A stretch of DNA of 64,000 nt, taken from assembly GCF_900105785.1 (NCBI RefSeq), contig NZ_LT629799.1, positions 1,488,001-1,552,000 of the forward strand, given 5' to 3'. This DNA comes from Microlunatus sagamiharensis. GTDB lineage: Bacteria; Actinomycetota; Actinomycetes; Propionibacteriales; Propionibacteriaceae. The notes beneath the pieces were generated by a model that was given only the letters and a program-made list of their open reading frames with translations, ran no database searches and was not told the origin of the DNA. This document shows, piece by piece, positions 13,309 through 52,320 of this stretch; the stretch's first letter is position 1; each line of letters begins with the position of its first letter. The translations under genes were made by a program, and so were the position numbers.

Positions 13309-14835
13309 GTGACGACCACGGACCTGGACCAGATCGGCGGACTCATCCGCAGCGCGCGCAAGCACCGCGGGCTGACGCAGACCCAGCTCGCCGAGGTGCT
13401 CGGCACCAGCCAGAGCGCGGTCCACCGGATCGAGGCCGGCAACCAGAACCTCAGCCTCGAGATGGTCAACCGCATCGCGGCCGCCCTCGACGCCCCGCTC
13501 ATCTCGGTCGGCCAGGCCGCGCCGCAGCACCTGCGCGTCCAGGGCGGCGTCAAGCTCAACGGCTCGATCGACGTCCGCTCCTCCAAGAACGCGGCCGTCG
13601 CCCTGCTCTGCGCCAGCCTTCTCAACCGCGGCCGCACCGTCATCCGCGGCATCGCCCGCATCGAGGAGGTCAACCGGATCCTCGAGGTGCTCACCAGCAT
13701 CGGCGTGCGCGCCACCTGGCTCAACGGCGGCGCCGACCTCGAGCTCAGCCGCCCCGACGACCTCGACCTGGACGGGATGGACGTCGAGGCCGCGCGCCGC
13801 ACGCGCTCGGTGATCATGTTCCTCGGGCCGCTGCTGCACTCCTACCCCGACTTCGCGCTCCCGTACGCCGGCGGCTGCGACCTGGGTGCCCGCACGATCG
13901 AGCCCCACCTGCAGGTGCTGCGCCGCTTCGGCCTCGACGTCGTGCCGACCGAGGGCTTCTACCGCTGCTCGGTGGACGACTCCGTGGAGCCGACCCGGCC
14001 CATCACGCTCACCGAGCGCGGGGACACCGTCACCGAGAACGCGCTGCTGGCCGCGGCCCTCTCCCCCGGCGTCACGGTCATCCGCAACGCGAGCCCCAAC
14101 TACATGGTCCAGGACCTCTGCGTCTTCCTGACCCGGCTCGGGGTGGAGATCGACGGCATCGGCACCACGACGCTGCAGGTGCACGGCGTCGCGGAGATCG
14201 ACGTCGACGTCGAGTTCGCCCCGTCGGAGGACCCGATCGAGGCGATGAGCCTCCTCACCGCGGCGATCGTCACCGGCTCGGAGCTGACGATCCGCCGGGT
14301 GCCGATCGAGTTCCTCGAGATCGAGCTCGCCGTGCTGGAGGAGATGGGCCTCGAGTTCACCCTCGGCACCGAGTACGTCGCCGCCAACGCCCACACACGC
14401 CTGGTCGACCTGACGGTGAAGCCGTCGGTCCTCCACGCGCCGATCGACAAGATCCACCCGATGCCGTTCCCCGGCCTCAACATCGACAACCTGCCGTTCT
14501 TCGCCGTGATCGCGGCGACCGCGGAGGGCAAGACCGTCATCCACGACTGGGTCTACGAGAACCGCGCCATCTACCTCACCGAGCTCAACCGGCTCGGCGC
14601 CCGCGTCCAGCTGCTCGACCCACACCGGATCATCGTCGAGGGCCCGACCCGCTGGCGCGGGACGCAGGTCGTCTGCCCGCCGGCGCTGCGCCCGGCGGTC
14701 TGCATCCTGCTCGGCATGCTCGGCGCCCGCGGCGAGTCCGTGCTGCGCGACGTCTACGTCATCAACCGCGGCTACGAGGACCTCGCGCACCGCCTCAACA
14801 TGCTGGGTGCCGACATCGAGGTGTTCAGAGATTAA
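13309..14835 (+). CDS. Xre-type HTH fused to MurA-like enolpyruvyl transferase
   Basis: A 508-residue fusion. Residues 5-65 are an Xre/Cro HTH (IRSARKHRGLTQTQLAEVLG, SQSAVHRIEAGN). From about residue 76 on it is an EPSP/MurA-type fold (UDP-N-acetylglucosamine 1-carboxyvinyltransferase). The substrate-binding KN pair is present (RSSKNAAVALL), and GGCDLGART matches the GGC-x-GAR active-site loop with the Cys that adds to PEP and is hit by fosfomycin. The later PFPGLNIDNLPFFA region keeps an Asp where MurA has its catalytic FPTD Asp. It could be a cell-wall enzyme that also represses its own gene, or an enzyme-derived regulator sensing UDP-sugars. It is probably not the only MurA in the cell. 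The stop codon TAA is the first part of a repeat element. Confidence 0.85.
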   Translation: MTTTDLDQIGGLIRSARKHRGLTQTQLAEVLGTSQSAVHRIEAGNQNLSLEMVNRIAAALDAPLISVGQAAPQHLRVQGGVKLNGSIDVRSSKNAAVALLCASLLNRGRTVIRGIARIEEVNRILEVLTSIGVRATWLNGGADLELSRPDDLDLDGMDVEAARRTRSVIMFLGPLLHSYPDFALPYAGGCDLGARTIEPHLQVLRRFGLDVVPTEGFYRCSVDDSVEPTRPITLTERGDTVTENALLAAALSPGVTVIRNASPNYMVQDLCVFLTRLGVEIDGIGTTTLQVHGVAEIDVDVEFAPSEDPIEAMSLLTAAIVTGSELTIRRVPIEFLEIELAVLEEMGLEFTLGTEYVAANAHTRLVDLTVKPSVLHAPIDKIHPMPFPGLNIDNLPFFAVIAATAEGKTVIHDWVYENRAIYLTELNRLGARVQLLDPHRIIVEGPTRWRGTQVVCPPALRPAVCILLGMLGARGESVLRDVYVINRGYEDLAHRLNMLGADIEVFRD

Positions 14836-14990
14836 TTGCCTCCGCTTCGCTCCGGCGCAGAGCGCGCTCTGATCCTCCGCCTTCCTCCCTACCTCGGAAG
14901 CCCGCGGCTGAGCGGTCGAGAAGTGGGTGCCGCGGGGCTTCCTCCTCCGGTCGTCCAGGCGGAGGCGCGCGCTCTGGCGATGGTCGGGCT
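14833..14990 (+). repeat. structured repeat, copy A
   Basis: A non-coding element starting at the stop codon of the HTH-MurA gene (TAATT). It shares with copy B (24466-24622, opposite strand) the blocks at 14878-14890 (CGCCTTCCTCCCT) and 14946-14961 (TCCGGTCGTCCAGGCG), plus shorter matches (CGCTCCG, GCGCTCTG, GGTCGGG). Between the two blocks is a hairpin, with arms at 14896-14908 and 14929-14942 (GGAAGCC/GGCTTCC type, one bulge). The stem sequence differs from that of copy B. It may be a terminator-like or mobile non-autonomous element. It fills the 212-base gap before pdxY. Confidence 0.75.
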
Positions 14991-15047
14991 ACAAAAAGCT
15001 CCTGCCGCAGCCAGTGGCCCAACCGCCCGCTCGGCTCGGTTGACGCA

Positions 15048-16013
15048 CTAGCGCAGGCTGACTGCCTCGAAGCGGCGGGACGGGTTCACCAGTTCGTCCT
15101 GGGCGGCGACGAGCTGGAGCTCGCGCCGACCGGACCGACGGGTGGCGTCGAGGACGCCGAAGACGACCGAGGCCGTCCAGGCCACGGCGTCGGCGGGGTC
15201 GTCGGTCTGCAGGAGCCGGGCGAGGAAGACGGCGGCGGTAAGGTCCCCGGCGCCCTGGAAGATCCCGTCGAGCCGCGGCGTCGTGACGCGCCACGCGCCC
15301 GCGCCGGTGACGACCACCAGGTCGAGGGTGCCGGGCTGGGTGTCCTCGACGTCGGCGCTGGTCACCAGCACCGTCTCCGGCCCGAGCGCCCGGGCCGCCT
15401 GGGCGGCCTCGACCACCTCGGCGAGCGTCCGGACGGTGCGCCCGGTCAGGAACTCCAGCTCGAACTGGTTCGGCGTGACGACCTGCGCCTGCGGCACGAC
15501 CGCGTCGCGCATCAGCTCGGGGATGCCGGGGGCCACGAAGAAGCCGCGGCCGACGTCGCCGAGGACGGGGTCGCAGCAGTAGAGGGCACCGGGGTTGCGC
15601 TCCTTGACCAGCGCCACGGCCTCGAGCACAGCCCGACCCGTGTCCGCCGCACCCTGGTAGCCCGACAGGACCGCGTCGCACTCGCCCAGCACCCCGAGGT
15701 CGTCGATGCCCTGCACCACCGCGCGCACGTCGTCGGCCCCGAGCACCGGGCCGCGCCAGGAGGCGTACCCGGTGTTGTTCGAGAAGTGCACGGTGAGGAC
15801 CGGCCACACCTCGACGCCCATCCGCATCAGCGGGAAGGTCGCCGCGCTGTTGCCGACGTGGCCGTACGCGACCGAGGACTGGATGGACAGGACTGTGCTG
15901 TTCCGGGGGGGCTCGGGGGGGTCGTCCCCCCCGGAACCGACTGTGCGGTTCCGGGGGGGCTCGGGGGGCTCGGGGGGGTCGTCCCCCCCGGAACCAGGCG
16001 TGCTGTTCCGCAC
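15048..16013 (-). CDS. pdxY: pyridoxal kinase with repeat-encoded N-terminal extension
   Basis: Phosphorylates pyridoxal (and pyridoxine) to the 5'-phosphate in the vitamin B6 salvage pathway; a PfkB/ribokinase-like fold. Clear PdxY features are LSIQSSVAYGHVGNSAA at the start of the fold, YCCDPVLGDVGRGFFV, TPNQFELEFLTG, and the anion hole plus catalytic Asp in FQGAGDLTAAVFLARLL. The normal protein should begin just before LSIQSS. Here the reading frame continues upstream through two hairpin repeats encoding GSGGDDPPEPPRN-type peptides to a GTG at 16013, giving an N-terminal extension of about 35 residues. No start codon is seen between the repeats and LSIQSS. Only 8 bases separate the GTG from the upstream monooxygenase stop. 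Confidence 0.85.
   Translation of the reverse strand: MRNSTPGSGGDDPPEPPEPPRNRTVGSGGDDPPEPPRNSTVLSIQSSVAYGHVGNSAATFPLMRMGVEVWPVLTVHFSNNTGYASWRGPVLGADDVRAVVQGIDDLGVLGECDAVLSGYQGAADTGRAVLEAVALVKERNPGALYCCDPVLGDVGRGFFVAPGIPELMRDAVVPQAQVVTPNQFELEFLTGRTVRTLAEVVEAAQAARALGPETVLVTSADVEDTQPGTLDLVVVTGAGAWRVTTPRLDGIFQGAGDLTAAVFLARLLQTDDPADAVAWTASVVFGVLDATRRSGRRELQLVAAQDELVNPSRRFEAVSLR
15901..15993. repeat. tandem G-rich hairpin repeats inside pdxY 5' end
   Basis: Two direct repeats of a self-complementary unit. Each has TTCCGGGGGGG, then one (15901-15936) or two (15949-15993) CTCGGGGGG modules, then GTCGT and CCCCCCCGGAA. The arms pair perfectly into hairpins, and the runs of six or seven Gs could form G-quadruplexes. 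Short copies of GGAACAGCAC (minus strand) flank the array exactly 105 bases apart. This fits an in-frame insertion or expansion between duplicated ends. Confidence 0.85.
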
Positions 16014-24320: not shown

Positions 24321-24369
24321 GCGGCCAAGAGTGCCAGGCGTACGCGCGGTGAACGGCACGGAACGCTTC

Positions 24370-24455
24370 TTGAGCCTGTCGAAGGATCAGGAACGGGTCG
24401 GTGCTCGTCCTCCTGGGAGACGCCAACCACGTCGTGGCCCTTCGACAAGCTCAGG
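24370..24455. repeat. inverted repeat of the CTGAGC-TGTCGAAGG type
   Basis: CTTGAGCCTGTCGAAGG (from 24369) is facing CCTTCGACAAGCTCAGG (to 24455), giving a 17-base stem with two mismatches around a 52-base loop. The same word family is seen widely as palindromic units in proteobacterial and actinobacterial genomes (from memory, not searched). It lies between the amidohydrolase start and repeat copy B, so the 299-base gap here is filled with repeats rather than a gene. Confidence 0.6.
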
Positions 24456-24465
24456 GAGCGTTGGC

Positions 24466-24622
24466 CCGACCCCCGCCGAGCGGCGCGCCGGCGCCTGGAC
24501 GACCGGACGCTGACGCCGACGCGAAGCTGCGGCAGCGGAGCAGACGACCCGGCGTCAGCGGGAGGGAGGAAGGCGCCGGACCAGAGCGCCGGTCGCGTCC
24601 GAGCGGAGCGAGGACAGAATTA
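24466..24622 (-). repeat. structured repeat, copy B
   Basis: The second copy of the element at 14833-14990, in the opposite orientation. Read on the minus strand it begins at the TAA stop of the Lrp gene (TAATT). It shares CGCCTTCCTCCCT (24563-24575) and the 16-base TCCGGTCGTCCAGGCG (24492-24507, minus strand). The central hairpin has a perfect 11-base stem, CGCTGACGCCG (24508-24518) with CGGCGTCAGCG (24550-24560), unrelated in sequence to the stem of copy A. Pairing is therefore kept while the bases change. Confidence 0.75.
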
Positions 24623-25057
24623 CAGCGGCGCGCGGTCCTCGTACGGCGTCGACAGCACGGTGGTGGTGTGCGTGGAGACCCCGGCGTCGGCGCGGATGCG
24701 GGCGAGGAGGGTCTCGAGGTCGCCCATCGTGGCGACCTGCACCTTGAGCAGGTAGCTCGGCTCCCCGGCGACGGAGTAGCAGGACACGACCTCGCTGAGG
24801 TGCGCGAGGCGCTGGGGCGCGTCGTCGGCTGCGCTCGGGTCGAAGGGCTTGATGGCGACGAAGGCGGTCACCTGCAGGCCGAGCTCGGCGGGCTCGAGGA
24901 CCGCGCGGTAGCCCTTGATGACGCCGCGCTGCTCGAGGCGCCGGACCCGCTGCTGGGCGGCCGAGGTCGAGAGGCCCGTCTCCTTGCCGATGTCGGTGTA
25001 GGACATGCGGCCGTCCCTGGCCAGCAACGCGAGGATGCGTTGGTCCAGATGCTCCAT
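24620..25057 (-). CDS. Lrp/AsnC family transcriptional regulator
   Basis: A 145-residue feast/famine regulator. The N-terminal HTH covers residues 3-60 (LDQRILALLARDGRMSYTDI, STSAAQQRVRRLEQRGVI). A C-terminal RAM ligand-binding domain (VTAFVAIKPF, VVSCYSVAGEPSYLLKVQV) normally binds an amino acid at a dimer interface. It acts as an octameric DNA-binding protein in the cytoplasm. It is divergent from the exonuclease gene, with 26 bases between the starts. The stop codon TAA is the first part of repeat copy B. Confidence 0.92.
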   Translation of the reverse strand: MEHLDQRILALLARDGRMSYTDIGKETGLSTSAAQQRVRRLEQRGVIKGYRAVLEPAELGLQVTAFVAIKPFDPSAADDAPQRLAHLSEVVSCYSVAGEPSYLLKVQVATMGDLETLLARIRADAGVSTHTTTVLSTPYEDRAPL

Positions 25058-51423: not shown

Positions 51424-52320
51424 TCAGCAGGAGGCGACGAGGTCCCAGCTCGCCGTCCCCGACTGGCGCAGGGAGACGGTGTTGTACGAGCTCGTCAGAC
51501 CGAGCGCGTCGCGCGAGCCGCGGGCGTACGCGCGGCCGTAGAGGCTGACCGCGCGGTCGGCGGCGACGTGCGACAGCGTCGAGGCGGTGACGCAGGTGGT
51601 TGGCGTCGGCGTGGGGGTCGTCCCCCCGCCGGTGCCGCCCGCCCGGACGAGCCCCGCGGCGAAGGTGGCGGCCTGGGTCACGGAACCGTTGCTGGAGTAG
51701 CTGAGGTGCCCGCCGCTCCCCTCTCCCGCCGGGTTGGAGCCCTGGCGCCCGCAGATCGAGTCGCTCACGTTGCAGTAGTCACGCGACTTCGGCCCGTAGA
51801 CGGTGCTCGAGGTGGCGATCGTCCGGCCGCTGGCGCCGAGCGGGTTGCCGAAGACGACGACGGCCGCCACCCGGCCCGACAGCGCCGACGGGATCGGGGT
51901 GCCCATCGTGACACCCGTCCGGATGCTGATGGCGATGTCGGTCACGGTGGCGCCCTGGGAGTAGCCGCCGATGACGAAGCGGGTGCCCGGGCAGGACGCG
52001 GCGACGGAGCTGACGTGGGCCGACATGTCCGTCGCCCCGGGGCCGGCGCTGGTCTGGGAGGAGTTCGCGGCGTAGTCGACGGCGTACGAGCTCACCGTGT
52101 AGCCGCCCAGCTGGCTCTGCAGCCCGCTCACGAGCGGGCGGCCCAGGATGCCGAGGCCGGGCGTCTCCCCCGTGCCGCGGGCGAAGACGACGTCGACGTC
52201 GCTGCACGCCGCCTGGGCCGGCGTGGTGCCGACGGCGAGCAGGCTGGTGAGGGCGACGGCGGGGACGGCCAGGGCGGTGGCGATCCGCCGGGCGAGGCGG
52301 GGGCGGGACGAGCAGTTCAC
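51424..52320 (-). CDS. secreted cutinase with appended C-terminal module
   Basis: A 298-residue exported serine esterase. The signal peptide ends at TTPAQA. The cutinase fold contains CSDVDVVFARGTGETPGLG, the nucleophile elbow VIGGYSQGATV, and the late Asp/His pair in CNVSDSICGRQG and GSGGHLSYSSNG. After a TTPTPTPTT linker come about 65 residues (CVTASTLSHVAADRAVSLYG, DALGLTSSYNTVSLRQ) resembling the C-terminal module of secreted PHB depolymerases and lipases (recalled, not searched). The start is GTG at 52320 with GAGGAG. It probably attacks cutin, waxes or polyesters. Confidence 0.88.
   Translation of the reverse strand: MNCSSRPRLARRIATALAVPAVALTSLLAVGTTPAQAACSDVDVVFARGTGETPGLGILGRPLVSGLQSQLGGYTVSSYAVDYAANSSQTSAGPGATDMSAHVSSVAASCPGTRFVIGGYSQGATVTDIAISIRTGVTMGTPIPSALSGRVAAVVVFGNPLGASGRTIATSSTVYGPKSRDYCNVSDSICGRQGSNPAGEGSGGHLSYSSNGSVTQAATFAAGLVRAGGTGGGTTPTPTPTTCVTASTLSHVAADRAVSLYGRAYARGSRDALGLTSSYNTVSLRQSGTASWDLVASC

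Follow-up and report, generated by a model that had tools for sequence, protein, structure and literature searches.

An element that keeps its fold while its stems diverge

What is being conserved when two copies of a repeat share their flanking blocks letter for letter and differ completely in the hairpin between them? This question is raised by a window of 64,000 nucleotides from the chromosome of Microlunatus sagamiharensis (NZ_LT629799.1, positions 1,488,001 to 1,552,000), in which a first-pass annotation had marked two copies, A and B, and suggested either an RNA or DNA structure with a function or a mobile element recognised by its structure. Both copies lie where that annotation had placed them, copy B on the minus strand (Table 1). 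Read on the element's strand, they share the exact blocks GCGCTCTG, CGCCTTCCTCCCT and TCCGGTCGTCCAGGCG, and the hairpin between the blocks is indeed built from different sequences (GGAAGCCCGCGG/CCGCGGGGCTTCC in A, CGCTGACGCCG/CGGCGTCAGCG in B). Two further features emerged: a pair of stems, H1 and H2, that differ in letters between A and B with pairing kept, and a small hairpin, H0, at the 5′ end of the element.

Table 1. Positions of the elements and their parts in the window
Feature	Positions	Strand	Basis or remark
Copy A, whole element as modelled	14831..14990	+	cmsearch R1, 118 bits
Copy A, TAA stop of EPSP-synthase/MurA-like gene, inside the element's 5′ end	14833..14835	+	ORF 13309-14835
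Copy A, H0 small hairpin ("box" CCTCCGCTTCGCTCCGG)	14839..14855	+	
Copy A, H1 5′ arm AGAGCGCGC	14859..14867	+	
Copy A, one-sided bulge TCTGATC	14868..14874	+	alignment A1
Copy A, H2 5′ arm CTCCGCCT	14875..14882	+	
Copy A, conserved internal loop, 5′ side TCCTCCC	14883..14889	+	columns (nearly) invariant
Copy A, H3 variable hairpin (GGAAGCCCGCGG ... CCGCGGGGCTTCC)	14896..14942	+	sequence; complement-strand fold
Copy A, conserved internal loop, 3′ side TCCGGTCGTCC	14946..14956	+	GTCGTCCAG invariant in 24/24
Copy A, H2 3′ arm AGGCGGAG	14957..14964	+	
Copy A, H1 3′ arm GCGCGCTCT	14967..14975	+	
Copy A, 3′ tail, family consensus CGGCGGTGGTCGGG	14976..14990	+	position counts, 83 copies
Copy B, whole element as modelled	24463..24622	-	cmsearch R1, 108 bits
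Copy B, TAA stop of Lrp/AsnC-type regulator gene 24620-25057(-), at the element's 5′ end	24620..24622	-	
Copy B, H0 box TCCTCGCTCCGCTCGGA	24598..24614	-	
Copy B, H1 5′ arm GACCGGCGC	24586..24594	-	
Copy B, bulge TCTGGTC	24579..24585	-	
Copy B, H2 5′ arm CGGCGCCT	24571..24578	-	
Copy B, H3 variable hairpin (arms CGCTGACGCCG / CGGCGTCAGCG)	24508..24560	-	
Copy B, H2 3′ arm AGGCGCCG	24489..24496	-	
Copy B, H1 3′ arm GCGCCGCTC	24478..24486	-	one mismatch vs 5′ arm

The plan common to the family runs, 5′ to 3′, through H0, H1, a one-sided bulge, H2, a conserved internal loop and the variable hairpin H3. H1 comprises 9 pairs and H2 comprises 8, and the bulge, present on the 5′ side only, has 7 bases, mostly of the type TCYRRYC. 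The two sides of the internal loop are marked by conserved sequence, TTCCTCCCT and CGGTCGTCC; H3 varies in length, its short form having a conserved apex, ACGAARAGCGTGT. Conservation stops about 16 bases 3′ of the closure of H1, at CGGCGGTGGTCGGG, and the whole element is about 130-165 bp long. The 5′ consensus is CGTGTCTTCTG or TTGATTG (91 copies) and the 3′ consensus is CCGGCGGTGGTCGGG (83 copies). Folding energies, which are weak evidence alone, gave z scores of -2.3 (RNA) and -1.5 (DNA) for the complement strand of A, and of -2.3 (RNA) for the listed strand of B.

Several other features were observed in the neighbourhood. The gene before copy A (13309-14835, +) encodes an N-terminal HTH_3 domain fused to an EPSP-synthase/MurA-type domain. 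Another repeat, CCTTCGACAAGCTCAGG, adjoins copy B as an inverted pair (24369-24385, minus strand; 24439-24455, plus strand), these being its 2 matches in the window at up to 3 mismatches against 0.17 expected; a similar sequence adjoins elements at L126, L118, L102, L104 and L018. A G-run block resembling GGGGGGCTCGGGGGGGTCGTCCCCCC is present in two near-copies at 15888-15988, with a weaker third at 51584-51627.

Further copies and covariation

A blastn search of the genome with copy A returned 59 matches at E≤10, a number that includes copy A; the best paralogue had an E-value of 6e-25. A covariance model (R1), built from 24 full copies aligned as A1 with the nested structure written in, was run on the 4,405,185-base genome and found 49 matches at E≤0.1. 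Forty-two of these fell below E 1e-6 and represent 41 distinct copies, one being duplicated by an overlap of the contig ends; E-values of the covariance models, which come from a shortened calibration, are rough. Near the two ends of the contig, near-identical sequence occurs at two places in the same order (208-337 against 4390375-4390505; 11456 against 4401687), probably because about 15 kb of circular overlap was left untrimmed in the assembly. A hand count of the R1 matches, assuming an origin near base 1, gave no clear replication-strand bias.

In A1, 20 of 30 pairs showed at least one double change that kept pairing. Double-change cells numbered 137 versus 48 in shuffles, and 91.2% of cells were paired versus 72.8%; sliding the partners by 1-3 columns reduced pairing to only 32-49%. 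Double changes were found in 7 of the 9 pairs of H1 (the other 2 invariant) and in 4 of the 8 pairs of H2 (4 invariant), and the H0 pair at A1 columns 9-25 is C-G in 12 of the 24 copies and T-A in the remaining 12. The number of further pair types was not above shuffles (81 of 500 reached the observed number). RNAalifold, to which the structure was not supplied, recovered H0, H1, H2 and part of H3, with 28 pairs of which 16 had a kept double change.

Two other alignments gave the same picture. Copies from a genome of another family, G489 (alignment A6; see below), had double changes in 8 of 24 pairs and were 97.1% paired against 89.9% when shuffled, further pair types again not exceeding shuffles (411 of 500 reached the observed number). 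A set of 36 matches from across the class (A8; 35 distinct) had a kept double change in 22 of 24 pairs, although fitting to a model biased A8 in favour of the structure. The first-pass annotation had staked its reading on further copies and on covariation; many more copies exist in this genome, in the genus and in other genera, and covariation exceeded shuffles in all three alignments (A1, A6 and A8).

Since the copies are related, such counts are not independent events, and comparison of the same locus across species is the stronger test of covariation. Of 19 such comparisons 18 were used, at 9 loci (L016/L100 was dropped, the aligned copy not being orthologous). Here H1 and H2 together showed 39 kept double changes versus 17 one-sided changes, the remainder being 242 unchanged pairs, 5 other double changes and 3 unchanged non-pairs. 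At L015/L088 one H1 pair has changed from C-G to T-A with nearly everything else in the element unchanged.

Double changes would need no selection if template switching copied one arm of the palindrome onto the other. Such neutral correction fits the fact that nearly all changes lead from one Watson-Crick pair to another with few wobble intermediates. It does not explain, however, why the unpaired TTCCTCCCT and GTCGTCCAG and the apical ACGAARAGCGTGT are also kept in divergent Microlunatus, nor why the first two recur in other genera in the related forms TTCCCTC and AGTCCAG, and we regard it as highly improbable.

Taxonomic distribution

Within Microlunatus the distribution of R1 matches was patchy: 13 of 20 genomes, the source genome included, contained copies, and the other seven had no match even at E≤0.05. 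At E≤0.001 the matches numbered 63, the most per genome (G017), 45 (G001), 44 (G018), 26 (G015), 25 (G019), 23 (G010) and 20 (G014), and one of the 13, G002, had a single weak match. In the same 20 genomes blastn with copy A reached only 7, against the 13 reached by the covariance model (source genome included in both).

Among 147 genomes of the order, R1 matched 5, all Microlunatus and including the source genome. Among 394 genomes of the class it matched 3, namely the source genome, G018 and G489, the last from another family. G489 had 31 matches at E≤0.05; 34 at E≤0.01 were found in the 30 loci that were read. Its copies have their parts in the same order as in Microlunatus: box, H1, bulge, H2, TTCCCTCC..., CAGTCCAG, H2′ and H1′.

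A second model, R2, was built from the G489 copies alone. In a set of 40 genomes it matched 23 of the 24 from the genus of G489 and 0 of 16 others; across the class its matches, some of them weak, fell in 21 of 394 genomes and 12 of 137 genera. R2 recovered copy A (G000:C1:1502822-1502995, E 2.6e-6) and also matched M. flavus copies, with no match in G018, where R1 matches easily. Homology therefore holds in both directions, because R1 reaches G489 and R2 reaches copy A and M. flavus. Reading of 36 matches from the genus of G489 and others, a set that left out the g100 matches, identified TTCCCTC and AGTCCAG-type blocks in 9 genera outside Microlunatus. Three weak R2 loci (L281-L283, genera g56 and g9) lack both blocks and may not be members of the family.

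A third, more general model, R3, matched 3 of 396 genomes in a sample of the phylum, all within the class. In the window R3 found copy A (14822-15001, E 7.2e-7) and did not find copy B at E≤1. All searches over more than 40 genomes used strict filters and scored few candidates per genome, so their counts are probably low. A pattern scan of named genomes yielded 86 stretches, 80 of them taken as loci; R1 matched 3 of the 70 on which it was run (10 from M. flavus were left out), all in Microlunatus/Friedmanniella, and R2, run on 17, matched only the one M. flavus locus. Taken together, these searches indicate that plain sequence comparison misses part of the family, and it was only the models that led to other genera.

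Placement next to genes and strand asymmetry

Gene positions were obtained with a home-made codon-usage caller and are approximate. In the source genome 37 of 46 copies had a sense gene upstream, and in 29 of the 46 a sense stop codon and the 5′ end of the model were no more than 10 nt apart (18 TGA, 6 TAG and 5 TAA). As its 5′ sequence is CGTGTCTTCTG or TTGATTG, the element frequently shares bases with the stop codon. The 3′ ends were not anchored, with 4 of 22 convergent stops lying within 10 nt. The corresponding counts in relatives were 24 of 59 for the sense stop at the 5′ end and 3 of 38 for the convergent stop at the 3′ end. Copies between co-directional genes numbered 19 (+,+) and 4 (-,-) in the source genome, 9 and 10 in relatives, and 5 and 16 in G489. 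In G489 a sense stop adjoins only 4 of 34 copies, and the gene on the 5′ side is antisense in 25 of 33; the stop-codon placement rule is thus not universal.

Tight placement just after stop codons in Microlunatus could mean that the element is a gene-end RNA kept for the host. Transcribed into the 3′ UTR of the gene before it, or of a convergent gene from the other strand, the hairpin would end transcription or block 3′-5′ exonucleases, and a need of the genes for it would account for the persistence and compensation of copies, as the paired changes at orthologous sites might suggest. This account sits poorly with G489, where a sense stop precedes only a minority of copies. A scan of both strands of A and B, the two copies covered, found no terminator-like hairpin followed by a T run.

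The two strands were also compared for mispairs. On the listed strand, H1 and H2 of 105 Microlunatus copies contained 48 A-C versus 8 G-T cells, and 10 of the 11 columns that leaned either way favoured A-C, with wobble of either kind being rare (56 of 1750 cells with letters). As A-C on the listed strand corresponds to G-U on the complement, the complement looks like the folding strand in Microlunatus, a pattern in the letters that is suggestive only. The bias was absent from H3 (9 versus 8) and from the mixed set A8 (8 versus 6), and was weak in G489 (10 versus 5). For a gene-end RNA the opposite would be expected, since the strand that shows A-C is that of the upstream mRNA.

The same asymmetry is what an independent small RNA, or an RNA-protein element, would produce if it were made in many copies from the complement strand and its fold recognised as RNA. 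The conserved loops are purine-rich on the complement, and both neighbouring genes lie on that strand in 16 of 33 G489 copies. Dozens of copies per genome would nevertheless be odd for one small RNA, and the rarity of wobble pairs of either kind also speaks against it; the end of conservation about 16 bases past H1 leaves little room for a shared promoter, and no sigma-70-like promoter, the one type sought, was found at A or B. We consider this reading quite improbable. The least probable of those weighed is a chromosomal DNA site bound as a cruciform by a nucleoid or segregation protein: a cruciform is symmetric between strands, unlike H1 and H2 in Microlunatus, and the seven genomes of the genus that lack a copy would have to do without it, even though dispersed, intergenic, palindromic copies that are long-lived at some loci would suit such a site.

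Turnover at shared sites

To follow individual sites, elements were masked and their flanks compared, using 40 stretches from G014, G017 and G018, which have 127 matches; because only these 40 were taken, the tally is a sample biased towards shared sites. Some shared sites keep their orientation, as does the murA-like site across four species. At 3 loci (L027/L119, L030/L124 and L072/L090) the same intergenic site holds elements in opposite orientation. At 4 the relative has no element (L009/L098, L011/L126, the second copy of L015, and the second copy of L076 against L089), and at 3 others (L082/L123, L085/L122 and L086/L087) the source genome's copy is decayed or a remnant and the relative's is intact.

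Where the element is absent from L098 (5014-5144) and L089 (785-881), a different hairpin of the type AAGTGGTC...GACCACTT lies between the genes; AAGTGGTCACTCCGG does not occur in the window. Unrelated hairpins in the same place are what a need for some gene-end structure would predict, yet copies that are decayed or missing in relatives argue against such a need, and with the strand evidence above they lead us to judge a host gene-end RNA unlikely.

Tandem arrays were found at L062 (1501-1883, G019), with a period of 132, and at G010:C1:3298470-3299140, with a period of about 135. A box-like sequence lies a short distance 5′ of 7 of 105 Microlunatus copies and 8 of 34 G489 copies, and one of the 7 is a full tandem copy; such stubs may be slippage deletions or tandem copies. 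At L226, L237 and L242 (G489) and L253 (G518, same genus) full elements are flanked by repeated 5′ stubs, and at L226, L237 and L253 repeated 3′ stubs lie on the opposite side, as would be seen had the cores of older copies been lost. No clean empty site, target duplication or partner enzyme was found, the transposase search covering the Y1 type.

Comparison with known systems

Against Rfam 15, the sole match in the window was a tRNA; 8 Microlunatus loci gave no match up to E 0.5, and the sole match in 6 G489 loci was an L31 leader outside the element. Membership of a known RNA family was therefore rejected, the element having no Rfam match, and the remark of the first-pass annotation that it knew of no named family with these blocks holds as regards Rfam. 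Neither a collection of phage (50,697) and plasmid (72,556) records gave a blastn match to the L041 or L250 copies, a search that could miss divergent copies, nor did literature searches among open-licence papers return a title or abstract that describes the family.

The Y1/RAYT transposase domain (PF01797) was found in 0 of 20 Microlunatus genomes, the source genome included, the control being positive in 5 of 14 known genomes; membership of the RAYT/REP system was rejected on this ground. Neither a GTAG nor a CGTC tag is present at the foot of the palindrome in the 5′ and 3′ consensus. Inspection of A1 did not reveal the REPIN plan of two inverted copies of one palindrome round a spacer: the conserved flanks do not mirror one another as inverted repeats, and the arms that pair differ from copy to copy.

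ERIC, BOX, RUP and Correia elements resemble the element by description, being intergenic, fold-forming, non-autonomous repeats of about 100-170 bp, although we know of no description of covarying stems that differ between their copies. Integron attC sites, likened on the same footing, have conserved ends, a variable paired centre and one active folded strand.

Correia, CIR and RUP elements are treated in PMC2229807. According to Di Nocera 2013 (PMC3733652), the stop codon of a flanking ORF is frequently contributed by a REP terminus and REPs lie near gene ends; Bertels and Rainey 2011 (PMC3116915) predict hairpins of REP/REPIN sequences in ssDNA or mRNA. REP/REPIN sequences and the element are alike in being small intergenic palindromic repeats with many copies, mostly downstream of genes; this holds for the element in Microlunatus, the 5′ neighbour in G489 being mainly antisense as noted above. 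REPs are, however, 20-40 bp long, end in a GTAG or CGTC tag and, in the GTAG class, are tied to RAYT transposases, whereas the element has 130-165 nt, several covarying stems, conserved loops, no such tag and no Y1 transposase. These differences in plan, length and end sequence, and the lack of a RAYT, are why we have not filed it as a REP. The main text of PMC3733652, figures and supplements aside, contains no word beginning Actinobact. MIRUs (mycobacterial interspersed repetitive units), as described in PMC12548453, resemble the element as short actinobacterial repeats, apparently mobile, at gene boundaries and with little harm to genes; they insert at start codons and contain an ORF that is coupled to the following gene, whereas the element often abuts stop codons in Microlunatus and its kept feature is the fold.

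Discussion

Further copies, covariation and the lack of an Rfam match all support the original proposal of a functional structure or a structure-recognised mobile element. We lean towards the latter, and infer that the family probably consists of short, non-autonomous, hairpin-forming mobile repeats, REPIN- or MITE-like with a plan of their own and, as far as we have searched, undescribed. Of known kinds, the REP/REPIN class, small hairpin elements that are likewise non-autonomous, comes closest to them. Dispersed copies, a fold kept by paired changes, patchy presence and turnover at shared sites support mobility; the orientation to neighbouring genes, which follows no single rule, weighs against it. 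Compensation in fixed orthologous copies also counts against a purely selfish element, which need not compensate.

A mobile element of this kind might work as follows. An enzyme other than a host Y1 transposase would recognise one folded strand through its stems and conserved loops and give rise to new copies, the recognised strand in Microlunatus more likely being the complement of the listed strand. The enzyme would join the 5′ end of the element near gene ends, where harm is small. The structure would be kept because only copies able to fold go on being used, and possibly also because the hairpin is useful at the gene end, terminating transcription or protecting the mRNA 3′ end.

More tentatively, and at somewhat less than even likelihood in our estimation, the elements could form an ancient and undescribed superfamily of structure-encoded mobile elements spread over the Actinomycetes, one folded strand being moved by a non-RAYT enzyme. 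The identity of such a superfamily would lie in its fold and a few loops, with stems free to drift. To our knowledge, nothing well known in the Actinomycetes corresponds to the proteobacterial REP/REPIN world. Annotation of gene ends would be affected, because the element often overlaps the stop codon in Microlunatus, and a multi-genus family recognised by its fold would test how small hairpin elements multiply without a RAYT.
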